Of a DNA stretch of 36,193 nt, positions 794-22,342 are shown one piece after another. The position numbers and the translations under genes are program-made. Numbering within the stretch: position 1 is the first letter of the stretch; each line of letters starts with the position of its first letter. This stretch comes from Acidimicrobiales bacterium (GTDB taxonomy: Bacteria > Actinomycetota > Acidimicrobiia > Acidimicrobiales > RAAP-2): positions 1 through 36,193 of the forward strand of contig JADGOH010000028.1 of the NCBI GenBank assembly GCA_017883025.1. Reading direction: 5' to 3'. The notes under the pieces were generated by a model. It worked only from the letters and a program-made list of their open reading frames with translations, was not told where the DNA came from and did not search any database.

Positions 794-3556
<2,763 letters not shown>

Positions 3557-3557
3557 G

Positions 3558-4715
3558 ATGGCGGCCGACAGCCCCCGTCCGGGGGACGGCGCGGTCGACC
3601 GGGTCGACATCGCCGAGACCCTCGTCCGGCTCGCGGAGCGACTCGGCGAGGCCGAGCGCTTCCTCGGTGCGGAGGGCCTGGCCGGTCGCCGGTCCGAGCT
3701 CGAGCAGGCGGCCTCCGCCCCTGACCTGTGGGACGACGCCGACAACGCCCGAGAGGTGACCACCGCCCTCGGACGGGTGACCGAGGACGTCCAGCTGCTC
3801 GCCTCGCTGGCCGAGCACCTGTCGGACGCCGAGACCCTGCTCGAGCTCATGCAGGAGGAAGGCGACGAGTCACTCCGCCCCGAGGTCGAGGGGATCCTGG
3901 CCGACCTCGACCGCCGCATGGGGGCACTCGAGCTGCGGGCGCTGTTCGGCGGCGAGTACGACGACGGCGACGCCGTGGCCGAGGTCCACGCCGGGGCCGG
4001 CGGCACCGACGCCCAGGACTGGGCCGAGATGATGCTGCGCATGTACACCCGCTGGGCCGAGCGCCGGGGTTTCACCATCGAGGTGGAGGAGGCCACGGAG
4101 GGCCAGGAGGCCGGGCTCCAGTCCGCCACCTTCATCGTGCGGGGCCGCTACGCGTTCGGGCTGCTGGCCGCCGAGCGAGGCGTGCACCGACTCGTGCGCA
4201 TCTCGCCGTTCGACGCCCAGCACCGGCGCCAGACCAGCTTCGCATCGCTCGACGTCGTCCCGTTCCTGGAGGACGTCTCCGGCGTCGTCGAGATCGACGA
4301 GAAGGACCTGCGTGTCGACACGTACCGGTCGTCGGGCGCGGGTGGCCAGCACGTCAACAAGACCGACTCGGCAGTGCGACTGACCCACCTGCCCACCGGG
4401 ATCGTGGTCACGTGCCAGAACCAGCGCAGCCAGACCCAGAACAAGGCCAAGGCCATGCAGGTACTCGGGGCCAAGCTGGCCGAGCGGCAGCGCGCCGAGC
4501 ACCAGGCGACGCTCGACGGCCTGGCGGGGGAGCGCACCGACAACGCCTGGGGCAACCAGATCCGCTCCTACGTGATGGCGCCGTACCAGTTGGTCAAGGA
4601 CCTGCGCACCAACGCCGAGACGGGCAACGTCGAGGCCGTCCTCGACGGCGACCTCGACATGTTCATCGAGGCCGAGCTGCGCCGCGGCGCCGAACTCCGA
4701 CGGAACAAGGGCTGA
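3558..4715 (+). CDS. prfB: Peptide chain release factor 2
   Basis: A class I release factor that reads UGA/UAA and triggers peptide release. The 385-residue protein shows the anticodon-like SPF tripeptide (RISPFDAQHRRQTSF), which separates RF2 from RF1 (PxT), and the catalytic GGQ loop (SSGAGGQHVNKTDSAVRLTH). ATG 3558 follows the secA stop by one base. The reading frame is continuous, so the autoregulatory +1 frameshift with an early UGA, known from many bacteria, is absent. The N-terminal extension (about the first 15 residues, acidic and Pro/Gly-rich) is longer than in E. coli. Its place between secA and ftsE is a common actinobacterial order. Confidence 0.96.
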   Translation: MAADSPRPGDGAVDRVDIAETLVRLAERLGEAERFLGAEGLAGRRSELEQAASAPDLWDDADNAREVTTALGRVTEDVQLLASLAEHLSDAETLLELMQEEGDESLRPEVEGILADLDRRMGALELRALFGGEYDDGDAVAEVHAGAGGTDAQDWAEMMLRMYTRWAERRGFTIEVEEATEGQEAGLQSATFIVRGRYAFGLLAAERGVHRLVRISPFDAQHRRQTSFASLDVVPFLEDVSGVVEIDEKDLRVDTYRSSGAGGQHVNKTDSAVRLTHLPTGIVVTCQNQRSQTQNKAKAMQVLGAKLAERQRAEHQATLDGLAGERTDNAWGNQIRSYVMAPYQLVKDLRTNAETGNVEAVLDGDLDMFIEAELRRGAELRRNKG

Positions 4716-4737
4716 GCTCCCTCCCAGTCCGCCGCCC

Positions 4738-4764
4738 CCGACGGCCCAGGCGCGGCATCGTCGG
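4738..4764 (+). terminator. Possible terminator after prfB
   Basis: CCGACG at 4738-4743 pairs with CGTCGG at 4759-4764. An inner GCC/GGC pairing extends the stem across a 2-nt bulge. No T run follows. It lies between the prfB stop and the predicted ftsE promoter. Confidence 0.4.
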
Positions 4765-4803
4765 AGGTCAGGGGGGCTGACCGAGTTCGGCGACGGCCCC
4801 GGG

Positions 4804-4809
4804 TAAGAT
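4804..4809 (+). promoter_or_regulatory. Putative -10 box of ftsEX (TAAGAT)
   Basis: TAAGAT precedes the ftsE ATG (4867) by 57 nt, so this transcript would have a leader of roughly 50 nt, unlike the leaderless units elsewhere in the window. No clear -35 is seen. Confidence 0.4.
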
Positions 4810-4866
4810 GGACGCTGCGGACAGTCCGCCGTGTTCTCGCATGCATCCCCGCCGCACCGCTACCCC

Positions 4867-5658
4867 ATGATCACATTCCAGAACGTCACCAAGACGTACA
4901 AGGGATCCACGGTCGCCCTGAACGACTGCACCGTAGAGATCGACAAGGGTGAGTTCGTCTTCCTGGTCGGCCCCTCGGGCTCCGGCAAGACGACGTTCAT
5001 CCGGCTGCTCCTGCGCGAGGAGATGCCGGACTCCGGGCGGATCTGGGAGGCGGGCAAGGAGATCGGCCACCTGCCGAAGTGGCGAATCCCGTACCTCCGT
5101 CGCAACATCGGGTGCGTGTTCCAGGACTTCCGGCTCCTGCCGAACAAGACCGTCTTCGAGAACGTGGCCTTCGCACTCGAGGTGATCGGGCGGCCGAAGC
5201 ACGTGATCGCCGCCCAGGTGCCCCAGGTGTTGGAACTGGTCGGCCTGGCCAAGAAGCGCGACAACCTGCCCGGCGAGCTCTCCGGCGGTGAGCAGCAGCG
5301 GGTGGCCGTGGCCCGGGCGTTCGTCAACCGCCCGCTGATCCTCCTGGCCGATGAGCCCACCGGCAATCTCGACCCGACCACCAGCCTCGGCATCATGCGC
5401 CTGCTGGACCGGATCAACCGCACCGGCACGACGGTGATCATCGCCACCCACGACGCCGGCATGGTCAACCAGATGCGCCGACGGGTGATCGAGCTCGACC
5501 GGGGCAAACTGGTGCGCGACCAGGCCCACGGCGTCTACGACATCGACAGCACCACCCTGGCCGGCGGCGCCGGTTCGCCCACGGGCGCACTGGTGGACCA
5601 GATGCCGACCGCCGACGACGACTTCGAGGTGTCCGACACCTTCCTGACCAGCCCCTGA
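4867..5658 (+). CDS. ftsE: Cell division ATP-binding protein FtsE
   Basis: The ATPase subunit of the FtsEX complex, which couples divisome assembly to activation of peptidoglycan hydrolases at the septum. The 263-residue protein has Walker [10 protein letters not shown], the Q loop in [21 protein letters not shown], signature [14 protein letters not shown], Walker [12 protein letters not shown] and the switch His in ATHD. The FtsE-typical segment around [14 protein letters not shown] is also present. I chose ATG 4867 because it gives the canonical [11 protein letters not shown]; the GTG at 4831 would add 12 unrelated residues. There is no good Shine-Dalgarno. About 40 residues beyond the ABC domain form an acidic, Gly/Thr-rich tail, longer than in E. 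coli. The gene overlaps ftsX by one base (TGATG). Confidence 0.95.
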
Positions 5659-6545
5659 TGGCGGTCTCCCCCGCCTATGTCTCGAAGGAGGCCGCCACCA
5701 ACCTGTGGCGCAACCGCCTCATGACTGCTGCCGCCATCCTGACGGTGGCCGTCTCGCTCGCCCTGGTGGGCTCGGCCCTGCTGCTCAAGCAGGGGGCGTC
5801 CAAGGCCACCGAGCTGTGGCAGAACGGCGTCCAGACCATCGTCTGGGTGAACCCCGGCGCCGGTCCCGCCCAGACCACGGCCATCAAGACCGAGCTGGCC
5901 CAGTCGCCGTACATCAAGTCGTGCATCTACAAGTCCCAGGCCTTCGACTACAACGAGGCCAAGAACGTGCTGCCGGCCGACGAGCTCGCCGTCACCACGC
6001 AGGCCCAGTACCCGTCGTCGTACCGTTGCGAGCTCCAGGACCCGTCCCAGGCGCCTGCCGTCTACCAGGCGTTCCACGGCAAGCCCGGGGTGTTCGACGT
6101 GAAGTACCCGGGTCAGCAGATCAAGACCATGCAGAGCGTGATCCGCGTGCTGCAGTGGGTCTTCCTGGCGGTCGCCGTGGTGCTCCTGCTGTCCGCCTCG
6201 GTGCTGATCTTGAACACCATCCGCATGGCCATCTTCGCCCGACGGCGGGAGGTCTCGGTGATGAAGCTGGTCGGCGCCACCAACTGGTTCATCCGATTGC
6301 CGTTCATGGCCGAGGGCATGATCCAGGGGCTGCTCGGCGCCGGTGTGGCCGTGCTCGTCGTCCTGGCCCTCTACTGGGGGATCGGACTGGACCAGCACCG
6401 CACCGCGGCCGACACGAACATCATCCACCAGATGGCACTCAGCGGCCCGGAGGTCTTCTTCACCTGCCTGCTCGTGTCGCTGGTGGGGGTGGGCGTCGGC
6501 GTGATCGGGTCGGCGTTCGCCGTCCGGCGCTTCCTCGACGTCTGA
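5658..6545 (+). CDS. ftsX: Cell division protein FtsX (permease-like)
   Basis: The membrane partner of FtsE. The 295-residue protein has the FtsX plan: a cytoplasmic N-terminus (YVSKEAATNLWRNRLM), TM1 at about residues 22-45, an extracytoplasmic domain of about 120 residues that recruits a hydrolase or its activator, and three C-terminal TM helices. The short segment RRREVSVMKLVGATNWFIR between TM2 and TM3 is the conserved coupling loop that contacts FtsE. The start overlaps the ftsE stop, so translation is coupled. In many actinobacteria smpB or a secreted peptidoglycan hydrolase follows. Here the next gene is a convergent lipase, so the FtsEX effector is not encoded beside it. Confidence 0.94.
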   Translation: MAVSPAYVSKEAATNLWRNRLMTAAAILTVAVSLALVGSALLLKQGASKATELWQNGVQTIVWVNPGAGPAQTTAIKTELAQSPYIKSCIYKSQAFDYNEAKNVLPADELAVTTQAQYPSSYRCELQDPSQAPAVYQAFHGKPGVFDVKYPGQQIKTMQSVIRVLQWVFLAVAVVLLLSASVLILNTIRMAIFARRREVSVMKLVGATNWFIRLPFMAEGMIQGLLGAGVAVLVVLALYWGIGLDQHRTAADTNIIHQMALSGPEVFFTCLLVSLVGVGVGVIGSAFAVRRFLDV

Positions 6546-6593
6546 CCCCGGGCCCCTGCTGACGTCGGGGCGCGCCTGACGCTGTCCGGCGTC
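6546..6593. terminator. Weak hairpins between convergent ftsX and lipase
   Basis: CCCCG (6546-6550) can pair with CGGGG (6566-6570), and GACGC-TGTCCG-GCGTC forms a stem at 6578-6593. Both are short and lack a T run. Confidence 0.3.
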
Positions 6594-6664
6594 TGACGCC
6601 TGGGCACGTCGCCATCCCCGTCGCCTGCAGACCAGGATGCCGACCGCCGGGGGCGTGCCGCCGC

Positions 6665-8026
6665 TCAGCGCAGGTGGCTGATCCCGAGCCCGGGGCGGGT
6701 GCAGGAGTCGACCGTCGACCCGCCGCCGAACCGGGCCCGGATCCACCGGTTGATCACGGTGGTCGACAGGTCGAGCACCTGGCTGTGGCCCACGCCCTGC
6801 TCGGCCACGTAGTCCACCGAGTCGTACTGGCTCTGGCACAGGCGTGTGCCCACGAAGCTCGTGGTCCGCCCGAACGGCACGACCTCGTCGGCGGTTCCCT
6901 GGACCACGAGGATGGGGGCCGACGTCGGCGAATTGCCGGGCCGGTTGGCCCGGTTGGCGGCCTGCACCCCGGGCAGGTGCTGCCAGCCGGGGAGGAAGAA
7001 CCGGGCCGGGGGCACCGCGTCGTACAGCGAGGCGACGCCGTCCACGCACGACGAGGCGACGGCCGGGATCCCCGCCAGGCCGGCCGGCGTCAGCACCTTG
7101 CCGAGCTGGAAGGTCCCGTAGTGCCGCGCCCAGGCGAACAGGGCCATCGCGGTGAACGCCGACTGGCCCGACGGTGGTGGTTGGTCGCCTGTCGGCGCCA
7201 GGTCCAGCACCGAGGTCACCGGGGCGACGGCGGCCACGCCGGCCACGAACAGCTCGGGCGCGTAGTTCTGGGCGATCTCCCCGGCGAACAGCGCGGCCTG
7301 GCCGCCCTGGGAGAATCCGAGCACCACCACGGCGTTCGAGGCGGCGCCACCCTCCAGCGACCGGGCCGCCCGGGCGCCGTCCAGCACGTCCTCGGCCTCG
7401 CTGTTGCCAACCAGGTAGGGGTGGATTCCGGGTGCGCCGAGTCCCCGGTAGTCGGCCGCCACGACGATCTCCCGGTCGGCGACGAGCGCGGCCACGTCCG
7501 GGATGGTGGAGGTGCCGTCGAGCGACGGGGCGCAGCCCGAGGCCACGCCGGTGGTCCCGTGGGCCCAACTCACGATGGGGAAGCCGCCCGGGGGCGGCCT
7601 ACCGCCGGGGACCACGACGACCCCCGACTCGGCGAGGTCCCCGCCGGAGCCCGAGGTGGTGTGGAAGAGGACCCGGTAGGCACGGGTGCCGGCGGGCAGG
7701 CCCGTGAGGCCGGCGACCGGTTGCGACCGGATGACCGATCCGGCCGGCGCGTAGGGGAGCGGGCTGGGTGGCCGGTAGAACCAGGCGAGCGACCCGGTGA
7801 CCGATGCACTGCCACCGTGGACGGCGGCAAGCGCGGCGACCGTCGACGCGGGAGCGGTGACCGCCGGCACCACCACCGTGGCGCTGGCGAGCGGCGCGCT
7901 TGCCGAGGTGCCGGCACCCGCCGGGGCGGCCGGCGCGCCCGCTCCGGCGAGCGCGACCGCCACCAGCAGGGTCACGAGCGCCGTCCGGATCGACGGGCCG
8001 TGCAGGCGTTCGCGGGTGGTCGCCAT
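6665..8026 (-). CDS. Secreted lipase/esterase, secretory lipase (LIP) family
   Basis: An alpha/beta-hydrolase predicted to be exported and to cleave acyl esters. The 453-residue protein opens with a signal peptide (positive n-region MATTRERLHGPSIR, hydrophobic core about 16-30, Ala-rich cleavage region to about 48). The catalytic set is visible: oxyanion region WAHGTTG (154-160), nucleophile elbow GFSQGG with Ser239, Asp380 in GTADEVVP and His414 in GVGHSQVLD. This arrangement matches the secretory lipase family related to Candida LIP proteins and mycobacterial homologues. The substrate cannot be read from the sequence. ATG 8026 was chosen because it gives a proper signal peptide and TACTGT ends 9 nt before it, although GGAG in the same gap could act as a Shine-Dalgarno. 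The gene diverges from the hydrolase at 8084. Confidence 0.85.
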   Translation of the reverse strand: MATTRERLHGPSIRTALVTLLVAVALAGAGAPAAPAGAGTSASAPLASATVVVPAVTAPASTVAALAAVHGGSASVTGSLAWFYRPPSPLPYAPAGSVIRSQPVAGLTGLPAGTRAYRVLFHTTSGSGGDLAESGVVVVPGGRPPPGGFPIVSWAHGTTGVASGCAPSLDGTSTIPDVAALVADREIVVAADYRGLGAPGIHPYLVGNSEAEDVLDGARAARSLEGGAASNAVVVLGFSQGGQAALFAGEIAQNYAPELFVAGVAAVAPVTSVLDLAPTGDQPPPSGQSAFTAMALFAWARHYGTFQLGKVLTPAGLAGIPAVASSCVDGVASLYDAVPPARFFLPGWQHLPGVQAANRANRPGNSPTSAPILVVQGTADEVVPFGRTTSFVGTRLCQSQYDSVDYVAEQGVGHSQVLDLSTTVINRWIRARFGGGSTVDSCTRPGLGISHLR

Positions 8027-8035
8027 GGCCGCTCC

Positions 8036-8041
8036 ACAGTA
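8036..8041 (-). promoter_or_regulatory. Putative -10 box of the secreted lipase (TACTGT)
   Basis: Ends 9 nt before the lipase ATG. With the -10 at 8069 on the other strand it makes a compact divergent promoter region. Confidence 0.45.
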
Positions 8042-8068
8042 GCCAGGAGTATGACCGGCGTGTTCCCC

Positions 8069-8074
8069 TACGCT
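8069..8074 (+). promoter_or_regulatory. Putative -10 box of the beta-lactamase-fold hydrolase (TACGCT)
   Basis: Ends 9 nt before ATG 8084 and argues for that start over the upstream in-frame ATG 8051, which would lie before the transcription start. Confidence 0.45.
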
Positions 8075-8083
8075 GGTGCGGGC

Positions 8084-8959
8084 ATGGACGCTCTGGAACT
8101 GGTGGCCGACTGGCCGGTGGACACGGCTGCCGTCGGAGTGGTGCGTGTCGGGCCCGACGGCCCCGGACGGGCGACCACCACCGGCGACACGGGGCGTCCC
8201 TACGCCTGGGCGTCGGTCACCAAGCCGGCGACGGCACTCGCCGTGCTGGTGGCCGTGGAGGAGGGCACGCTCGCCCTCGACGATCCTGCGGGACCGCCCG
8301 GGTCCACGGTGCGCCACCTGCTGGCCCACGCCTCGGGGCTGGGCCCCGACCCCGGCCCGCCCGTCGAGCCGCCGGCGGCGCGGCGCATCTACTCGAACGC
8401 CGGTTACGAGATCCTGGCCTCCGTTCTCGAGGCGGCGGCCGGCATGTCGTTCGCCGCGTACCTCTCCGCCGGTGTGCTGGAGCCGCTGGGCATGCACCGC
8501 ACCGACCTCGTCGGATCGCCGTCCGGAACGGCTGCCGCCGGCCTGGTGGGCCCGCTCGACGACCTGCTGGCGCTCGGCCGGGAGTGGGCCCAACCCACCC
8601 TGGTCAGCCGGGCAACCTGGCATCAGGCCACCTCGGTCCAGTTCCCGGGCCTGGCCGGCGTGCTCCCCGGGTTCGGCCCGTCGGACCCGTGCGACTGGGG
8701 CCTGGGCGTCGAGGTCCGGGGCACGAAACGCCCACATTGGACGGGGGTGACGAACTCGCCCGCCACCTACGGCCACTTCGGGCAGTCGGGCTCGTTCCTG
8801 TGGGTCGACCCGGCCGCCGGCGTGTTGTGTGCGGGGCTGGCGGACCGCCCGTTCGGCGTGTGGTCGTCACGGGCGTGGCCGGCACTGGCCGACGCCGTCC
8901 TGGCCGACGTGGCCGACGTGGCCGACGCGGCCGACCCAGCGGGCCCTGCCGGCGCCTGA
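8084..8959 (+). CDS. Serine hydrolase, beta-lactamase/esterase EstB-like fold
   Basis: A member of the PF00144 family (class C beta-lactamases, DD-peptidases and esterases), which uses an acyl-enzyme serine. In this 291-residue protein SxxK is ASVTK (Ser44, Lys47), the second element is YSN (103-105), and HFGQSG (231-236) stands where KTG occurs in true beta-lactamases. That pattern fits esterase-like or uncharacterised hydrolases better than a resistance enzyme. No signal peptide is evident, so it is probably cytoplasmic. ATG 8051 would add 11 residues but sits directly against AGGAG. The C-terminus ends in a low-complexity run ADVADVADAADP encoded by a 9-bp tandem repeat, followed by PAGPAGA. 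The true substrate is unknown. Confidence 0.82.
   Translation: MDALELVADWPVDTAAVGVVRVGPDGPGRATTTGDTGRPYAWASVTKPATALAVLVAVEEGTLALDDPAGPPGSTVRHLLAHASGLGPDPGPPVEPPAARRIYSNAGYEILASVLEAAAGMSFAAYLSAGVLEPLGMHRTDLVGSPSGTAAAGLVGPLDDLLALGREWAQPTLVSRATWHQATSVQFPGLAGVLPGFGPSDPCDWGLGVEVRGTKRPHWTGVTNSPATYGHFGQSGSFLWVDPAAGVLCAGLADRPFGVWSSRAWPALADAVLADVADVADAADPAGPAGA
8902..8935 (+). repeat. 9-bp tandem repeat at the 3' end of the hydrolase gene
   Basis: GGCCGACGT occurs at 8902-8910 and 8911-8919, then GGCCGACGC at 8920-8928 and a partial GGCCGAC at 8929-8935. It encodes an ADV/ADA run after the catalytic domain, where copy number can probably vary without harm. Confidence 0.8.
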
Positions 8960-9049
8960 CGGGCGGCTGCGCCTCCACCCGTCACAAGGCAGGCCCGTCC
9001 TCCCGGCACGAGGTGCGGTCGTCCGCCGCACACGGCCGTCGGCCACGTC

Positions 9050-9055
9050 TAGGCT
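9050..9055 (+). promoter_or_regulatory. Putative -10 box of the nucleotidyltransferase gene (TAGGCT)
   Basis: TAGGCT is followed by exactly 6 nt and then ATG 9062, the spacing expected if transcription starts at or next to the A of the start codon. There is no Shine-Dalgarno. Confidence 0.6.
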
Positions 9056-9061
9056 GCGCGC

Positions 9062-9805
9062 ATGAAGGGTGTCCTCCTCGCCGGTGGTACCGGCTCGCGT
9101 CTCCATCCGCTGACCCGCATCACCAACAAGCACCTGTTGCCGATCTACGACCGGCCCATGATCAATTGGGCGATCGAGGCGCTGGTGAACGCCGGGATCA
9201 CCGAGATCATGCTGGTCACGGGCGGGACCCACGCCGGGGAGTTCCTGCGCCTGCTCGGCAACGGCCAGGAGTTCGGGATCGACCGCCTCAGCTACGGATA
9301 CCAGGAACGCCCGGGCGGGATCGCCGAGGCGCTCGGCCTGGCCGCCCGCTTCGTCGACGGGGACCCGGTGCTCGTGATGCTGGCCGACAACATCTGCGAG
9401 AACTCCATCCGGCCCATGGTCGACGCGTTCCGGGCCGATCCACACGGCGCCCGCATCCTGCTGACGCCGGTCGAGGAGGACGAGCACCTGCGCCACCTCG
9501 GCGTCCCCACCTTCGACGACGACCACCGGATCATCGGCATCACCGAGAAGCCCGAGCAGCCGGCCTCCAAGTTCGGCGTGACCGGTATCTACTGCTACGA
9601 CGCCGACGTGTTCGACGTGATCCCGACGCTGGTCCCCTCGGGCCGGGGCGAGCTCGAGATCACCGACGTCAACAACCACTACATCGCCCAGGGGGCCATG
9701 GACTTCGACGTGCTCGAAGGGTTCTGGGGCGACGCCGGCGAGTCGATCGACGCCTATTACACGGTCAACGACTTCGTCCGCACCCACGGCGCCAACAAGG
9801 GCTGA
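9062..9805 (+). CDS. rmlA: Sugar nucleotidyltransferase, glucose-1-phosphate thymidylyltransferase-like
   Basis: Predicted to join a sugar 1-phosphate to an NTP (classically dTTP plus glucose-1-phosphate to dTDP-glucose) in the cytoplasm, for rhamnose-type sugars of the envelope. The 247-residue protein has the N-terminal nucleotide loop LLAGGTGSRLHPLT, then NKHLLPIYDRPMI, the metal-binding LADNICEN (LGDN in most RmlA), ITEKPEQPASKFGVTGIYCYD and RGELEITDVNNHYI. It is shorter than classical RmlA (about 290 residues) and lacks the C-terminal helices of the allosteric site, as in the 'short' RmlA-like proteins of actinobacteria. No rmlBCD genes are nearby, so the sugar is uncertain. Confidence 0.85.
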   Translation: MKGVLLAGGTGSRLHPLTRITNKHLLPIYDRPMINWAIEALVNAGITEIMLVTGGTHAGEFLRLLGNGQEFGIDRLSYGYQERPGGIAEALGLAARFVDGDPVLVMLADNICENSIRPMVDAFRADPHGARILLTPVEEDEHLRHLGVPTFDDDHRIIGITEKPEQPASKFGVTGIYCYDADVFDVIPTLVPSGRGELEITDVNNHYIAQGAMDFDVLEGFWGDAGESIDAYYTVNDFVRTHGANKG

Positions 9806-16479: not shown

Positions 16480-17346
16480 TCACGGGTTGGCGAGTGTGGC
16501 CGTCACGATGAGGGCAGCGGCTCCGAGGCGGAGCAGACCGTCCTGCACCCGCGCATCCAAGGCGGTGCGCACTGCCGACCTGAGCTGCTCATGGAACGCC
16601 GGGTCGTCGTCCATCTCGAGTGCCTCCCGCACGGCTCCCACCCGGCAGGCCGCCTCGACCACCATGTCGACCTGGTCTGCGCTCACCACGACCTGCTCCG
16701 TTTGGGGACGCACCTCGATCGACCCGAACCCGGCACCGAGGAGCAACTGCTCGACGTGCCCGGGATCGGCCAAGGAGAAGGGCCCCGGTTCACCCGGGCC
16801 GGGCATGGGCGGCAACTGTCCCGTCACCGCGACCACCGCCGAGCCCGGCACGAGCATCCATTCGTTCGAGAAGACGTCCTGCCAACAGGCGAACGCGATC
16901 CGCCCACCGCTGCGCAAGGCGCGGCGCACATTGGCGAAGGCGGCCACCGGATCGGAGAAGAACATGACGCCGAACTGGGAGAAGACCGCGTCGTATGCCC
17001 CACTCCCGAGGTCGGCGGACTGCGCATCACCGACGACGAATTCTGCGTTGTCCACGCCGTCGCCGCCCGCCCTCGCTCGCGCGACCGCCAGCATCGAGGG
17101 TGCGATGTCGATCCCGACCGCGGTTCCTCCAGGAGACACCCTGCGTGCCAATTCGATGGTTGTGGGCCCGGTTCCGCACCCGACGTCCAGCACCCTCGAG
17201 CCGGGTTCGAGGGCCAAGCAGTCCATCGCCCGTCGGCCGAACGAACCGGTGACAAGGGTCGTGTAGTCCTCGGCCTCGATCCACGACGACGAGCGCCGCT
17301 CCCAGTAGTCGCCCTGTGTGGAATTGGCGTCGACCGAGTCGTCCAT
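16480..17346 (-). CDS. Class I SAM-dependent methyltransferase
   Basis: Transfers a methyl group from S-adenosylmethionine to an unknown small-molecule acceptor. The 288-residue protein has motif I LDVGCGTGPTT (residues 53 on), the acidic residue after strand 2 (VGIDIAPSMLAVAR), motif II/III VVGDAQSADLGSGAYDAVFSQFGVMFF, and the GGRIAFACWQDVFSNEW region of UbiE/Coq5-like enzymes. The N-terminal YWERRSSSWIEAEDY helix is typical of this subgroup. The ATG start at 17346 is supported by TAGCGT 7 nt upstream, and no Shine-Dalgarno is present. It is unlikely to be BioC despite the nearby biotin genes: the fold is generic, and it is separated from them by DUF2332 and ribC in the other direction. Confidence 0.85.
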   Translation of the reverse strand: MDDSVDANSTQGDYWERRSSSWIEAEDYTTLVTGSFGRRAMDCLALEPGSRVLDVGCGTGPTTIELARRVSPGGTAVGIDIAPSMLAVARARAGGDGVDNAEFVVGDAQSADLGSGAYDAVFSQFGVMFFSDPVAAFANVRRALRSGGRIAFACWQDVFSNEWMLVPGSAVVAVTGQLPPMPGPGEPGPFSLADPGHVEQLLLGAGFGSIEVRPQTEQVVVSADQVDMVVEAACRVGAVREALEMDDDPAFHEQLRSAVRTALDARVQDGLLRLGAAALIVTATLANP

Positions 17347-17353
17347 CCTGGCG

Positions 17354-17359
17354 ACGCTA
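17354..17359 (-). promoter_or_regulatory. Putative -10 box of the methyltransferase (TAGCGT)
   Basis: Ends 7 nt before ATG 17346, in leaderless spacing. Confidence 0.55.
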
Positions 17360-17438
17360 CTCGGACCGTCCCGGCGAATCTCCAGGGGCCACCGCTCGCC
17401 ACGGTGCGCATCCCCGTGCTCCGTACGAGGCGAAAGGG

Positions 17439-18437
17439 TCAGCGACCCGAACCGGGAGCAATGACGGTCGACGCCGGGCCGATCCAGTCGAGCGACTCAC
17501 CGTGCGGTCCGGCGTACGCCAGGGGTACGCCGTCCAGGGCGATCACGAATGCAGACCGGGTGACATCGGGGCGCGGAGGGAGCGCGCGTTCCGGGTACGG
17601 GAGGACTCCCACCCCTTCGTTGGAGATCCAATGTCCGGGCAGCGCATCCGTGCGGCGGGCGAAGGCCGCCCGATCGTCGAGGCTCAAATAGGCCAGGACG
17701 GCACTGTGGAAGATGACCAGCGTTGCGTCTGCCGGGGCCCTGGCGGCCGTCTCCTCCAGTAGTGAGAGGAGGTCCCCGGCGACGAGATCGGGTGGCATTG
17801 TGCGGGCCACCTCGGCCGCCGCCCTCAGCCGATCCCTGCGATGTTCCTGCCCGGGCCAGACCAGGGCCTCGAGCCACCGCATCTCGTCAGCGTTGTCGAC
17901 GTCCAAGGGGTTGAGGTCGATCCCTGCCCGCCAGGCGATTTCGGGGAGGCGTGCGGGCACGGGAACGAGTCCCGACGTAGCACACGGCAACACCGACGCT
18001 CCTGGTCCATCCGCTGGGTCAATGCGAGGCCCGTCGTCGTACCGATAGCTGAACCTGTCGGGATACAGGCAGAGGCCAGCCGAAGCGCCGACCTCGAGCA
18101 GCGCCAGTGGCTGAGGAAGCGAGGCCAGACAAGGCAACAAGGCGGCGCACCGTCCCGGCTCGTTCGTCTGGGTGTGCCGCTCGAGGGCAATCGCACGAAT
18201 CTCGGGCCATTCGTCGATGAACCGCGCCCGGAACTCACCAAAGCCGATTGGCGGGATCCCAGCGAACCGGGCCGCTGCCAACACGAGGTTCGGTTGCCTC
18301 GTTCGCTCCGGAAGCTCATCGATCAGCGCCACGAGGCCGTGGTCATCGGCAATGCCCTCGGCCCACTGCTCATAGCAGGCTGAGGCTCCACGGACTTCGG
18401 CCGATGCGAACCACCGGTACCAGCTGGCAGTGTCCAT
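17439..18437 (-). CDS. DUF2332 family protein
   Basis: A 332-residue member of the actinobacterial DUF2332 family, whose function is unknown. Recognisable are WYRWFASAEVRGASACYEQWAEGIADD at the N-terminus, the LLEVGASAGLCLYPDRFSYRYD segment, GIDLNPLDVDNADEMRWLEALVWPGQEHRRDRL and VIFHSAVLAYLS. The LLEVGASAGL stretch resembles a Rossmann methyltransferase motif I, and family members are often suspected to bind a nucleotide cofactor, but no activity is established. I start at ATG 18437 because TACTGT ends 8 nt before it; a TTG three codons upstream would begin inside the predicted promoter region. Codon choice is less GC-biased than in the bio genes. Confidence 0.82.
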   Translation of the reverse strand: MDTASWYRWFASAEVRGASACYEQWAEGIADDHGLVALIDELPERTRQPNLVLAAARFAGIPPIGFGEFRARFIDEWPEIRAIALERHTQTNEPGRCAALLPCLASLPQPLALLEVGASAGLCLYPDRFSYRYDDGPRIDPADGPGASVLPCATSGLVPVPARLPEIAWRAGIDLNPLDVDNADEMRWLEALVWPGQEHRRDRLRAAAEVARTMPPDLVAGDLLSLLEETAARAPADATLVIFHSAVLAYLSLDDRAAFARRTDALPGHWISNEGVGVLPYPERALPPRPDVTRSAFVIALDGVPLAYAGPHGESLDWIGPASTVIAPGSGR

Positions 18438-18445
18438 CTCCGTCA

Positions 18446-18451
18446 ACAGTA
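18446..18451 (-). promoter_or_regulatory. Putative -10 box of the DUF2332 gene (TACTGT)
   Basis: Ends 8 nt before ATG 18437. GGAG directly abuts the ATG and is too close to serve as a Shine-Dalgarno. Confidence 0.5.
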
Positions 18452-18519: not shown

Positions 18520-18996
18520 TCAGCCGACGATCGGACCGGCGTCCTCGTAGCCCTGGCGCACGCCCTTGCCGGCGTTGCGGGTCAGCTGCTCGGGTTCGTA
18601 CAGCATCCAGTAGGCGTTGCGGGCGTGCTTGCGGGCCCGGTTGACGCACACGAGGGCCAGCTTGGCCGGGTCCGCCTCCTCGTTCTCGTGCACGAAGACC
18701 TCGAGGATGTGGGTGGAGGTCATCAGCTGGGCCAGCATGAGCCCCTGGGACGCCTCGTGGGCGCAGACCTGGTCGATGGCCGCCCTGCCGGGCATGCCCA
18801 GTGCGACGACGATCCTGCAGTCCTCCTGCTCGATCAGCCGCTTGCAGGCCACGCCCAGATCCTTGAACCCGGGAACGGTGCGGCGGACGACCTCGAAGGT
18901 CGAGCCGAAGCCGGGGCAGTCCGCCAGCTCGTCCAGAGCCTCGGCCCCCATGTCGTAGCGGGCGAACATGGTGTCTACGACGCCGATGCGATCCAT
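18520..18996 (-). CDS. ribC: Riboflavin synthase, archaeal type (RibC, lumazine-synthase fold)
   Basis: Predicted to dismutate two 6,7-dimethyl-8-ribityllumazine molecules into riboflavin and the pyrimidinedione. The 158-residue protein matches what I recall of the archaeal pentameric enzymes along its whole length: IGVVDTMFARYDMG, RRTVPGFKDLGVACKRL, VALGMPGRAAIDQVCAHEAS, QGLMLAQLMTSTHILEVFVH, NRARKHARNAYWMLYEPE and AGKGVRQGYEDAGP. It is unrelated to the duplicated-barrel RibE of most bacteria. A paralogous lumazine synthase is the main alternative, but CAHEAS and the GKGVRQGYEDAG ending favour RibC. ATG 18996 is preceded by TAGAGT with a 6-nt gap. It diverges from bioA. No other rib genes are in the window. 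Confidence 0.85.
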   Translation of the reverse strand: MDRIGVVDTMFARYDMGAEALDELADCPGFGSTFEVVRRTVPGFKDLGVACKRLIEQEDCRIVVALGMPGRAAIDQVCAHEASQGLMLAQLMTSTHILEVFVHENEEADPAKLALVCVNRARKHARNAYWMLYEPEQLTRNAGKGVRQGYEDAGPIVG

Positions 18997-19002
18997 CGGT
19001 CC

Positions 19003-19008
19003 ACTCTA
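19003..19008 (-). promoter_or_regulatory. Putative -10 box of ribC (TAGAGT)
   Basis: Ends 6 nt before ATG 18996, the exact leaderless spacing. Confidence 0.6.
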
Positions 19009-19150
19009 CCGGTCGACCTCTTGCGCCCTTCCCTTCGGTGGCCCCGTCACGCAGTCCGGCGCACGCCTGCCGCGCGACCCCGGGCGTGCACGGACCACGT
19101 CGCGGCGACGGTTCGCCGGAGGCCTCGCCGGTGGGCAAGACTCGTGGCCG

Positions 19151-20478
19151 ATGAGTGCTGAGACCCCACCCCCGACCGCAGTCGACCCCTGGGTGGCCAG
19201 GGACGTCGCCGTGGTCTGGCACGGCTTCACCCAGATGGCGGCCTACCCGGGCAACGCGCCGGTGACCGTGGAGCGGGCCGAGGGCCGGGAGCTGATCGAC
19301 GTCCACGGCAACCGGTACTTCGACGCCATCTCGTCGCTGTGGGTCACCACGTTGGGCCACCGGGTGCCCGAGCTCGACGCCGCCGTGATCGACCAGCTGG
19401 GCAAGGTGGCCCACGCCACTCTGCTCGGCAACGGCAGCCGGGTGGTCGTCGAGTTCGCCGAGGCACTGGCCGCCGTGGTGCCGGTCGACGATCCGCACAC
19501 CGTGTTCGCCTCGGACGGGGCGGTGGCCGTCGAGCAGGCCCTCAAGATCGCCTTCCAGTACTGGGTCAACCGCGGGGAGCCGGACCACGCCCGGTTCCTC
19601 GCCCTTGGCGACGCGTACCATGGGGACACCGTCGGCGCCCTGTCGGTGGGCGACGGCGGTTTCGGCACCACGGTGTTCGACCCGTTGCGGTTCCCGGTGG
19701 TCCGCACCCCCGGCTACGCCAGCGCCGACTGGGCGCCCAAGGCGGTGGCGGCCATCGAGGCCCATGCCGGCACGCTGGCCGCCATGATCGTCGAGCCGCT
19801 CGTACAGGGCGCGTCGGGTATCCTGGTGGCCGACCCCGAGGACCTGGCCATGGTCGGCAGGGCGTGCCGGGAGCACGGCGTCCTGCTGATCTGCGACGAG
19901 GTGGCCACCGGGTTCGGACGCACCGGCAGGCTCTTCGCATCCGAGTGGGCGGGGCCCGAGTTCCGGCCCGACATCGTCTGTCTGGGCAAGGGGATCACCG
20001 GCGGGTACCTGCCCGTGTCGGCTACGGTGGTGTCGCGGGCCGTCTACGAGGGGTTCCTCGGTGAGGACCTCGGCACGGCGACCTTCTACCACGGGCACTC
20101 CTACGGTGGGAACGCCCTCGGGTGCGCCGTGGCCCTCCGCCACCTACAGCTGCTCGAGGAGTGGGACGTCCTGACCCATGTCCGCACGGTGGCCGACCAC
20201 CTGGGCGCCCGGCTCGACCGGTCGGTCGTCGGCCTCGGCGGGGTGGCCGACGTGCGCCGGCGCGGCCTCATGGTGGGCGTCGAGCTGGACCCGCCCGACG
20301 GAGCCGTGCGGTGGGGCCGCCGGGTGTGCGCCGGCGCCGTGCGGCGCGGCGTGCTGCTCCGCCCGCTGGGCGATGTGGTCGTGATCATGCCGCCGCTCAC
20401 CAGCACCGAGGCCGAGCTCGACCGGGTGGTCGACGTACTGGCCGAGTGCATCGCCGAGGTGTGGGCCGAGGACGCAGG

Positions 20479-20482
<4 letters not shown>
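19151..20482 (+). CDS. bioA: Adenosylmethionine-8-amino-7-oxononanoate aminotransferase
   Basis: A PLP enzyme that converts KAPA to DAPA with SAM as amino donor, the step before dethiobiotin. The 443-residue protein is a class III aminotransferase: YHG at 156-158, DE at 249-250, the PLP lysine Lys280 in CLGKGITGGYLP, and HGHSYGGNALGCAVA. The N-terminal WHGFTQM fits BioA. ATG 19151 has no Shine-Dalgarno; AAGACT ends 8 nt upstream and could be a weak -10. A 4-base overlap (GTGA) with the next gene, annotated as bioF, and an 11-base overlap beyond it to bioD make a coupled operon, which is the main reason for assigning BioA rather than another omega-aminotransferase. Confidence 0.92.
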
Positions 20483-21658
<1,176 letters not shown>

Positions 21659-21669
<11 letters not shown>

Positions 21670-22342
21670 GCGGTTGGTGCTGGTGTGCGGGACGGGGACC
21701 GAGGTGGGCAAGTCATGGGTGGGTGCCCGCCTGCTCACCGAACTCCGGTCCCGGAGCCGGACGGTGTCGGCCCGCAAGCCGGCACAGTCCTTCGATGTGG
21801 ACCACGCCGGCATTCGCCTCGGCGGCGCCACCGACGCCGAGATCCTCGGTGCCGCCTCGGGCGAGCATCCCGGCGAGGTGTGCCACTCGTTCCGTTCCTA
21901 CCATCGGGCCATGGCCCCGCCCATCGCCGCCGAGGTACTGGGCCTGCCGCCGTTCACCGTGGCCGACCTGGTCGGGGAGCTCGACTGGCCCGCCACCGGC
22001 TCCGACGTGGGCCTGGTGGAGACGGCGGGCGGGGTGCGCTCGCCGCAGGCCGACGACGGTGACGTGTGTGACCTGGTGGCCGCGCTCGCACCCGATCTGG
22101 TGGTCCTGGTCGCCGACGCCGGGCTGGGGACCATCAACAGCATCCGGCTGTCGATGGACGCGCTGGCCGGGAGTCTCGGCGGGACCCCGCAGGTGCCGGT
22201 GGCCGTCGTGCTCAACCGCTACGACGGGAACCACGAGATCCACCGGCGCAACCACGGCTGGTTGGCGGGGCGCGACGGTTACACGATGGTGACGATGCCG
22301 GGCGGTGGGCCGGCGCTGGCCGACCTGGTCCTCGGGGCCTGA
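21659..22342 (+). CDS. bioD: ATP-dependent dethiobiotin synthetase
   Basis: Closes the ureido ring of DAPA with CO2 and ATP to make dethiobiotin, the substrate of BioB. In 227 residues the P-loop is CGTGTEVGKSW and the lid region contains ETAGGVRSPQADDGDV, where most BioD proteins have an ETAGG followed by a serine/proline stretch. LNRYDG is the guanine-like base loop. The GTG start at 21659 overlaps bioF by 11 bases. The segment ARKPAQSFD replaces the KPV/ASG pattern of enteric BioD but fits actinobacterial forms. It is the last gene of the bioAFD unit; the next gene has its own promoter. Confidence 0.9.

Follow-up and report, generated by a model that had tools for sequence, protein, structure and literature searches.

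The riboflavin synthase of archaea is pentameric; it takes up two molecules of lumazine and shifts a four-carbon unit from one to the other, yielding riboflavin and a pyrimidine that lumazine synthase (RibH) can use again. In some bacteria, not in all, the RibH cage encloses the bacterial synthase, RibE, by way of the RibE C-terminus (PMC13376624, in the text available). The roseoflavin-producing Streptomyces possess RibE2, an additional, archaeal-like synthase for which horizontal transfer has been suggested; the available text of the paper concerned (PMC11039241) holds the only statement on archaeal-type riboflavin synthases in bacteria that we met in the open-access literature. The accessible main text of PMC10117117 yielded nothing on archaeal-type synthases, and the RibE2 of Aeromonas is, in the available part of PMC10012899, a bacterial two-barrel enzyme.

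Here we analyze a window (the whole stretch of DNA studied, 36,193 nucleotides) from one of the Acidimicrobiales. The original prediction of an archaeal-type synthase in an actinobacterium is confirmed, although the extra copy of the roseoflavin producers (PMC11039241, available text) means that it is not unprecedented. Our reading, to which we assign a probability of about 0.92, is that the gene at 18520-18996 (ribC) encodes the only riboflavin synthase of the cell, an enzyme of the archaeal kind, that ribC came into an ancestor and ribE disappeared from its place between ribD and ribBA, and that a further switch in genus g51 is probable. Family codes (f1, f31 and the like) are internal to the analysis, f1 being the family of the window.

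RibC belongs to the archaeal-type riboflavin synthase family

The open reading frame coincides exactly with 18520-18996 on the minus strand, starts with ATG and encodes 158 amino acids with no internal stop (Table 1). In the NCBIfam search, its product scored 193.8 bits against TIGR01506, the archaeal-type riboflavin synthase (curated equivalog cut-off 100.55), with residues 4-156 covering positions 2-151 of the 151 in the profile; the likeness to archaeal RibC over the whole length, as originally claimed, was thus recovered, and the motifs quoted at that time (CAHEAS and LMLAQLMTS among them) are present. Against TIGR00114, the lumazine synthase profile, the score was 24.3 bits (curated cut-off 84.6). 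The best natural relative of solved structure is the riboflavin synthase of Methanocaldococcus jannaschii (2B98, E = 1.5 × 10−55), marginally exceeded by 5IM5, a designed variant of 2B98 (E = 1.1 × 10−55), and no solved lumazine synthase matches better than E = 0.28. Identity to M. jannaschii RibC amounts to 88 of 153 aligned positions (58%; 58-59% across comparisons), and identity to the RibH of the same genome to 25% over 99 positions (E = 0.029). In a joint tree, 13 RibC rows, one of them archaeal, were split from 24 RibH and RibH2 rows with support of 100/100, which places the protein outside the lumazine synthases. The identification of the product as a lumazine synthase was rejected on the TIGR00114 score, the tree split and the low identity to the cell's own RibH.

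Table 1. Positions of ribC, its neighbors in the window and the riboflavin operon (locus L005, contig C50 of the same genome).
Feature	Sequence	Position	Strand	Basis or remark
ribC, archaeal-type riboflavin synthase	window	18520..18996	minus	158 aa; TIGR01506, M. jannaschii identity, RibC/RibH tree
putative −10 element TAGAGT	window	19003..19008	minus	6 nt before ribC ATG; putative leaderless start
class-III aminotransferase, divergent neighbor (bioA name tentative)	window	19151..20482	plus	Pfam Aminotran_3, 290.9 bits; context only
DUF2332 protein, downstream neighbor	window	17439..18446	minus	Pfam DUF2332, 240.2 bits; context only
ribD	L005	aligned from 1141, stop at 2178		
ribBA	L005	2321-3577		
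ribH	L005	3564-4148		
hisG	L005	aligned from 4151 to 5047		

Pfam files RibC under DMRL_synthase (51.8 bits), a family with three further members in the genome, as might be expected if RibC were an enzyme of lumazine-synthase type with a different function and the cell obtained riboflavin in some other way. We consider this very unlikely, because the riboflavin synthase equivalog cut-off is exceeded by 93 bits and the lumazine synthase cut-off missed by 60, because the RibC rows stand apart from RibH and RibH2 alike, and because the pathway would otherwise be without its last step.

Comparison of ribC with six relatives gave pS values of 0.33-0.40 and pN values of 0.04-0.13, change being mostly at synonymous sites. 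The GC contents of the three codon positions (0.69/0.42/0.94) were close to those of the gene at 794-3556 (0.69/0.41/0.95), which we take, from its sequence rather than from a family scan, to encode SecA. The mean log codon score of ribC was −0.639; four genes at 794-9805 scored between −0.594 and −0.652, and the three at 19139-22342 between −0.715 and −0.819. The host-like codon use that had been proposed therefore holds. The methyltransferase and DUF2332 genes downstream of ribC (16480-18446, minus strand) scored −1.016 and −1.218 and are clearly less host-like than ribC and the other scored genes of the window. These nine genes form the reference, so that their own scores are flattered.

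The riboflavin pathway in the genome of the window

The assembly to which the window belongs comprises 2.5 Mb in 178 contigs and is 72% complete. The Lum_binding domain, the mark of bacterial RibE, was not found in it by a search that detects the domain in 11 of 14 control genomes; at 72% completeness the absence of RibE is weak taken alone, and the relatives are needed. The genes ribD, ribBA, ribH and hisG, and with them the lumazine synthase, lie in one run on another contig (Table 1), where RibD scored 305.3 bits against TIGR00326 (cut-off 156.35), RibH scored 154.9 bits against TIGR00114 (cut-off 84.6), and the DHBP synthase part of RibBA exceeded its Pfam cut-off. RibD, RibBA and RibH would make lumazine, and RibC, by its predicted activity, would carry out the last step; by analogy with the archaeal enzyme it is expected to be a pentamer that would form riboflavin, together with a pyrimidine reusable by RibH, from two molecules of 6,7-dimethyl-8-ribityllumazine.

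Besides the normal ribH, the genome contains two second-type lumazine synthases (NF009084), at 2283-2696 of contig C173 (L002) and 18347-18760 of contig C174 (L003). Each adjoins a similar LLM-type oxidoreductase gene (TIGR03841 in the case of L003) and lies near a carbohydrate-deacetylase-like gene, the C173 copy of which was scanned and fell below all cut-offs. No Rfam match to the FMN riboswitch was found at the gathering threshold in the window or at loci L005, L006 and L007.

RibC and RibE are almost mutually exclusive among relatives

The sample of relatives comprised 100 genomes, 61 of f1 (including that of the window) and 39 of other families. Within f1, RibC was above the cut-off in 54 of 61 genomes and fragmentary in two more (G037 and G048), and it was not found in five (G012, G025, G039, G041 and G055). 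RibE was above the cut-off in none of these 61 draft assemblies, with a single match below the cut-off, in G027. Of the two alternatives originally offered, replacement of the bacterial enzyme or possession of both, it is the former that fits this result and the lack of RibE in the window's own genome. By hand count, 42 f1 genomes are listed as at least 90% complete, and RibC occurs in 40 of them. Three f1 genomes listed as 91-97% complete (G039, G041 and G446) have DHBP synthase and neither RibC nor RibE, perhaps through assembly gaps.

Among the 39 genomes of other families, four had RibC, 28 had RibE, seven had neither and none had both. In a sample of 298 genomes of the order, RibC was found in 45, RibE in 187, both in one (G672) and neither in 67. 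The RibC carriers belong to f1 (11), f112 (10), f39 (6), f127 (6), f9 (3), f31 (2), f33 (2), f110 (2), f115 (1), f126 (1) and f14 (1). In a sample of 396 genomes from the phylum, RibC was above the cut-off in nine, all within the order of the window. In the genomes sampled, RibC is a lineage trait and not phylum-wide.

The high similarity to the archaeal enzyme might suggest contamination, or a recent acquisition in a single strain. This is extremely improbable, given that the codon use of ribC fits the contig, that most f1 genomes carry the gene (see above), and that a search of a genome collection gave 192 confirmed matches, of which the 80 listed are 73-92% identical and mostly titled as Acidimicrobiaceae, Acidimicrobiales, Actinomycetes or Actinobacteria metagenome-assembled genomes (MAGs), two as Acidobacteria or Acidobacteriota and one just as bacterium. 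Among the matches listed is the RibC of the cultured Aciditerrimonas ferrireducens (NCBI family Acidimicrobiaceae), with 83% identity.

Five genomes of the same order listed as 95-99% complete (G066, a single contig, and G075, G077, G093 and G094) gave no match for RibH, RibE, RibC or DHBP synthase, and these organisms may need outside riboflavin. In the RibE-bearing G672 (L228:5514-6962, contig C73), the only one of 12 f14 genomes searched with RibC above the cut-off, a SoxR gene stands divergent to a gene for a RibH2-type lumazine synthase, and the RibC gene starts 8 bases after the latter; this RibC is divergent in sequence (120 bits) and has CAGDAS in place of CAHEAS.

The ribE slot of the operon is empty in the RibC genomes examined

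We picked nine RibE genomes that have ribE and ribH on one contig, and all nine showed the order ribD-ribE-ribBA-ribH; in G080 ribD and ribE are about 1.7 kb apart. Two RibE genomes of f31 (G548 and G715) have the same ribE-bearing operon (2/2), which makes 11 of 11 genomes picked. On coordinates alone, ribE lies near ribH on one contig in 27 of 28 RibE genomes, and in the remaining one (G099) the two are on different contigs.

At all 12 RibC loci examined, ribE is absent from the operon, which in the genome of the window is otherwise complete. At 11 of the 12, ribD runs up to ribBA with a gap of at most about 0.2 kb, too little for ribE. At the twelfth, in G092, the approximately 0.9 kb from the contig start to ribBA hold neither ribD nor ribE; since ribD does not stand upstream of ribBA there, the operon is rearranged and the lack of ribE carries less weight. 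The same stretch of G092 (L166:1-890, contig C39) contains a frame that, by eye, resembles the zinc-ribbon end of a transposase-like protein. A remnant of ribE in the operon was rejected as well, because tblastn with two RibE queries (E 1 × 10−6) gave no match at any of the 12 RibC loci, at which fainter traces are possible.

An ordinary RibE might still be encoded in the missing part of the assembly, with RibC as a second synthase in the manner of the roseoflavin-producing Streptomyces. The 72% completeness leaves room for this, and two synthases can coexist, as G672 shows by holding both RibC and RibE and as the extra RibE2 of Streptomyces illustrates (PMC11039241, available text). It is nevertheless a very improbable explanation, because RibE is above the cut-off in no f1 genome, including the 42 listed as at least 90% complete, and because the site at which RibE relatives keep ribE is sequenced through here and ribE is absent from it. 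From the near exclusion of RibE by RibC, together with an operon that lacks ribE, we infer that RibE was displaced.

Replacement history within the order

The displacement of RibE probably happened more than once. In a tree of SecA sequences from 30 genomes (query 794-3556), the RibC carriers did not form one clade and three changes were needed; two rows were out of place, those of G090, a RibC carrier with 41% of its columns filled, and G091, a RibE carrier on the longest branch. A single RibC clade was not rejected (AU p = 0.077), and without G090 and G091 one change suffices (support 89/88). A single change was also enough in a tree of concatenated operon genes from 21 genomes, weakly supported (51/68). 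Both states occur within family f31, with RibC in two genomes, both of genus g51, and RibE in seven others; the g51 RibC clusters with its f127 counterpart (89/87). In a larger RibC tree, from which 16 near-duplicate f1 rows had been removed beforehand, f1 was not one clade, and for this reason there were perhaps further transfers.

The likeliest history comprises an old replacement in the main lineage, followed later by another in g51: an ancestor of the Acidimicrobiales lineage would have gained ribC, ribE would have dropped out between ribD and ribBA, and at least one further RibE to RibC switch would probably have followed in genus g51 of f31. The transfer looks old, as originally proposed, because RibC is spread over the whole family, and transfers within the order seem to have continued, as in g51. 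A longer RibH N-terminus was rejected as a mark of RibC carriers, because the RibE carriers G080 and G087 have it too.

Expression and gene context of ribC

We located ribC in 116 relatives, of which 12 lacked a usable start or 60 nt of upstream sequence, and of the remaining 104 stretches 31 near-copies were dropped, leaving 73. TANNNT, sought 5-9 nt upstream of the start codon, occurred at 6-8 nt in 27 of the 73, as compared with a mean of 1.0 and a maximum of 7 of 73 in 500 mononucleotide shuffles. A looser −10-like pattern fits 43 of the 73 (a raw count with no shuffled control), and a Shine-Dalgarno-like 4-mer is present in 35, in some cases inside the −10-like element itself. A scan around ribC found neither a sigma-70-type hexamer pair nor a terminator. 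Of the clean leaderless promoter originally described, the TANNNT element 6 nt before the ATG is there, but, with no hexamer pair, the promoter is less clean, and the leaderless claim comes from the −10-like element by itself. On this pattern we take the ribC start to be leaderless in the genus of the window; other relatives may differ. At 26 of 85 loci, including one f33 locus, a relative of the divergent aminotransferase is encoded no more than 3 kb from ribC, some loci being too short to show it.

Novelty and implications

RibC is an enzyme of a known kind. What appears new is its role as the sole synthase of a bacterial lineage, together with the emptied operon slot, neither of which we found described in the open-access literature. 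The lineage offers a clear before-and-after case in which a member of a different family took the place of an essential enzyme, with the vacated slot still visible and both states present within f31. These bacteria also allow a natural test of whether RibE needs to be kept together with RibH. With RibE gone, any RibH shell that they form would lack RibE as its content, and such a shell or its cargo may have changed. A survey of pathways or a list of drug targets that relies on RibE alone would miscall these bacteria as riboflavin auxotrophs.

Source of ribC and comparison with known systems

Among 72,556 plasmid records, the only match was the RibE2 of Streptomyces camelliae (65.6% identical), alongside which a gamma-glutamyltransferase, ribX and rosB were seen. 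Phages gave no RibC match, nor did viral contigs, for which another search gave 22 pattern hits, none confirmed. The RibC of the window is closer to RibE2 (66%) than to M. jannaschii RibC (58-59%). RibE2 fell inside the Acidimicrobiales RibC set at 99/87 in one tree, a position that is not secured by these sequences, as a topology holding RibE2 outside was not rejected (AU p = 0.252, and 0.453 with more rows). With RibH as outgroup, the bacterial RibC rows were all united next to M. jannaschii (92/97, short of the starred level); with M. jannaschii as the sole archaeal sequence in the trees, they cannot settle the direction of transfer or the donor, and RibC is presumably of archaeal origin. 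A tentative picture, which we would not favor at present, makes the Acidimicrobiales the bacterial home of RibC: a single entry, displacement of RibE at least twice (in the main lineage and in g51 of f31), and passage to other actinobacteria, so that the RibE2 of the roseoflavin producers would come from this possible bacterial source rather than directly from archaea. The gene may travel in portable ribH2-ribC pairs, of which the SoxR-flanked pair in G672 would be an example.

The protein of the window resembles archaeal RibC (TIGR01506; M. jannaschii, PDB 2B98/2B99) in its full-length match, in its 58% identity and in the kept CAHEAS and RQG-EDAGP motifs, but its host is a bacterium whose RibD is of the bacterial type (TIGR00326). 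Bacterial RibE (PF00677) presumably catalyzes the same reaction, whereas its family is different and it was not found in this genome. Lumazine synthase (TIGR00114) shares the Pfam family of RibC as a distant paralogue, but RibC scores below its cut-off and the two form separate groups in the tree. The RibE2 encoded in the rosB cluster of S. davaonensis, S. berlinensis and S. camelliae is of the same family (163.2 bits against TIGR01506 for S. camelliae) and its host, too, is one of the Actinomycetota. The window ribC does not stand with rosG, ribX, ribY or rosB, its five scanned neighbors being a methyltransferase, a DUF2332 protein, two aminotransferases and an AAA_26 protein. Whereas RibE2 is, in the available text of PMC11039241, an extra copy in an antibiotic cluster, the RibC of the window is apparently the sole synthase and is encoded beside probable biotin genes.
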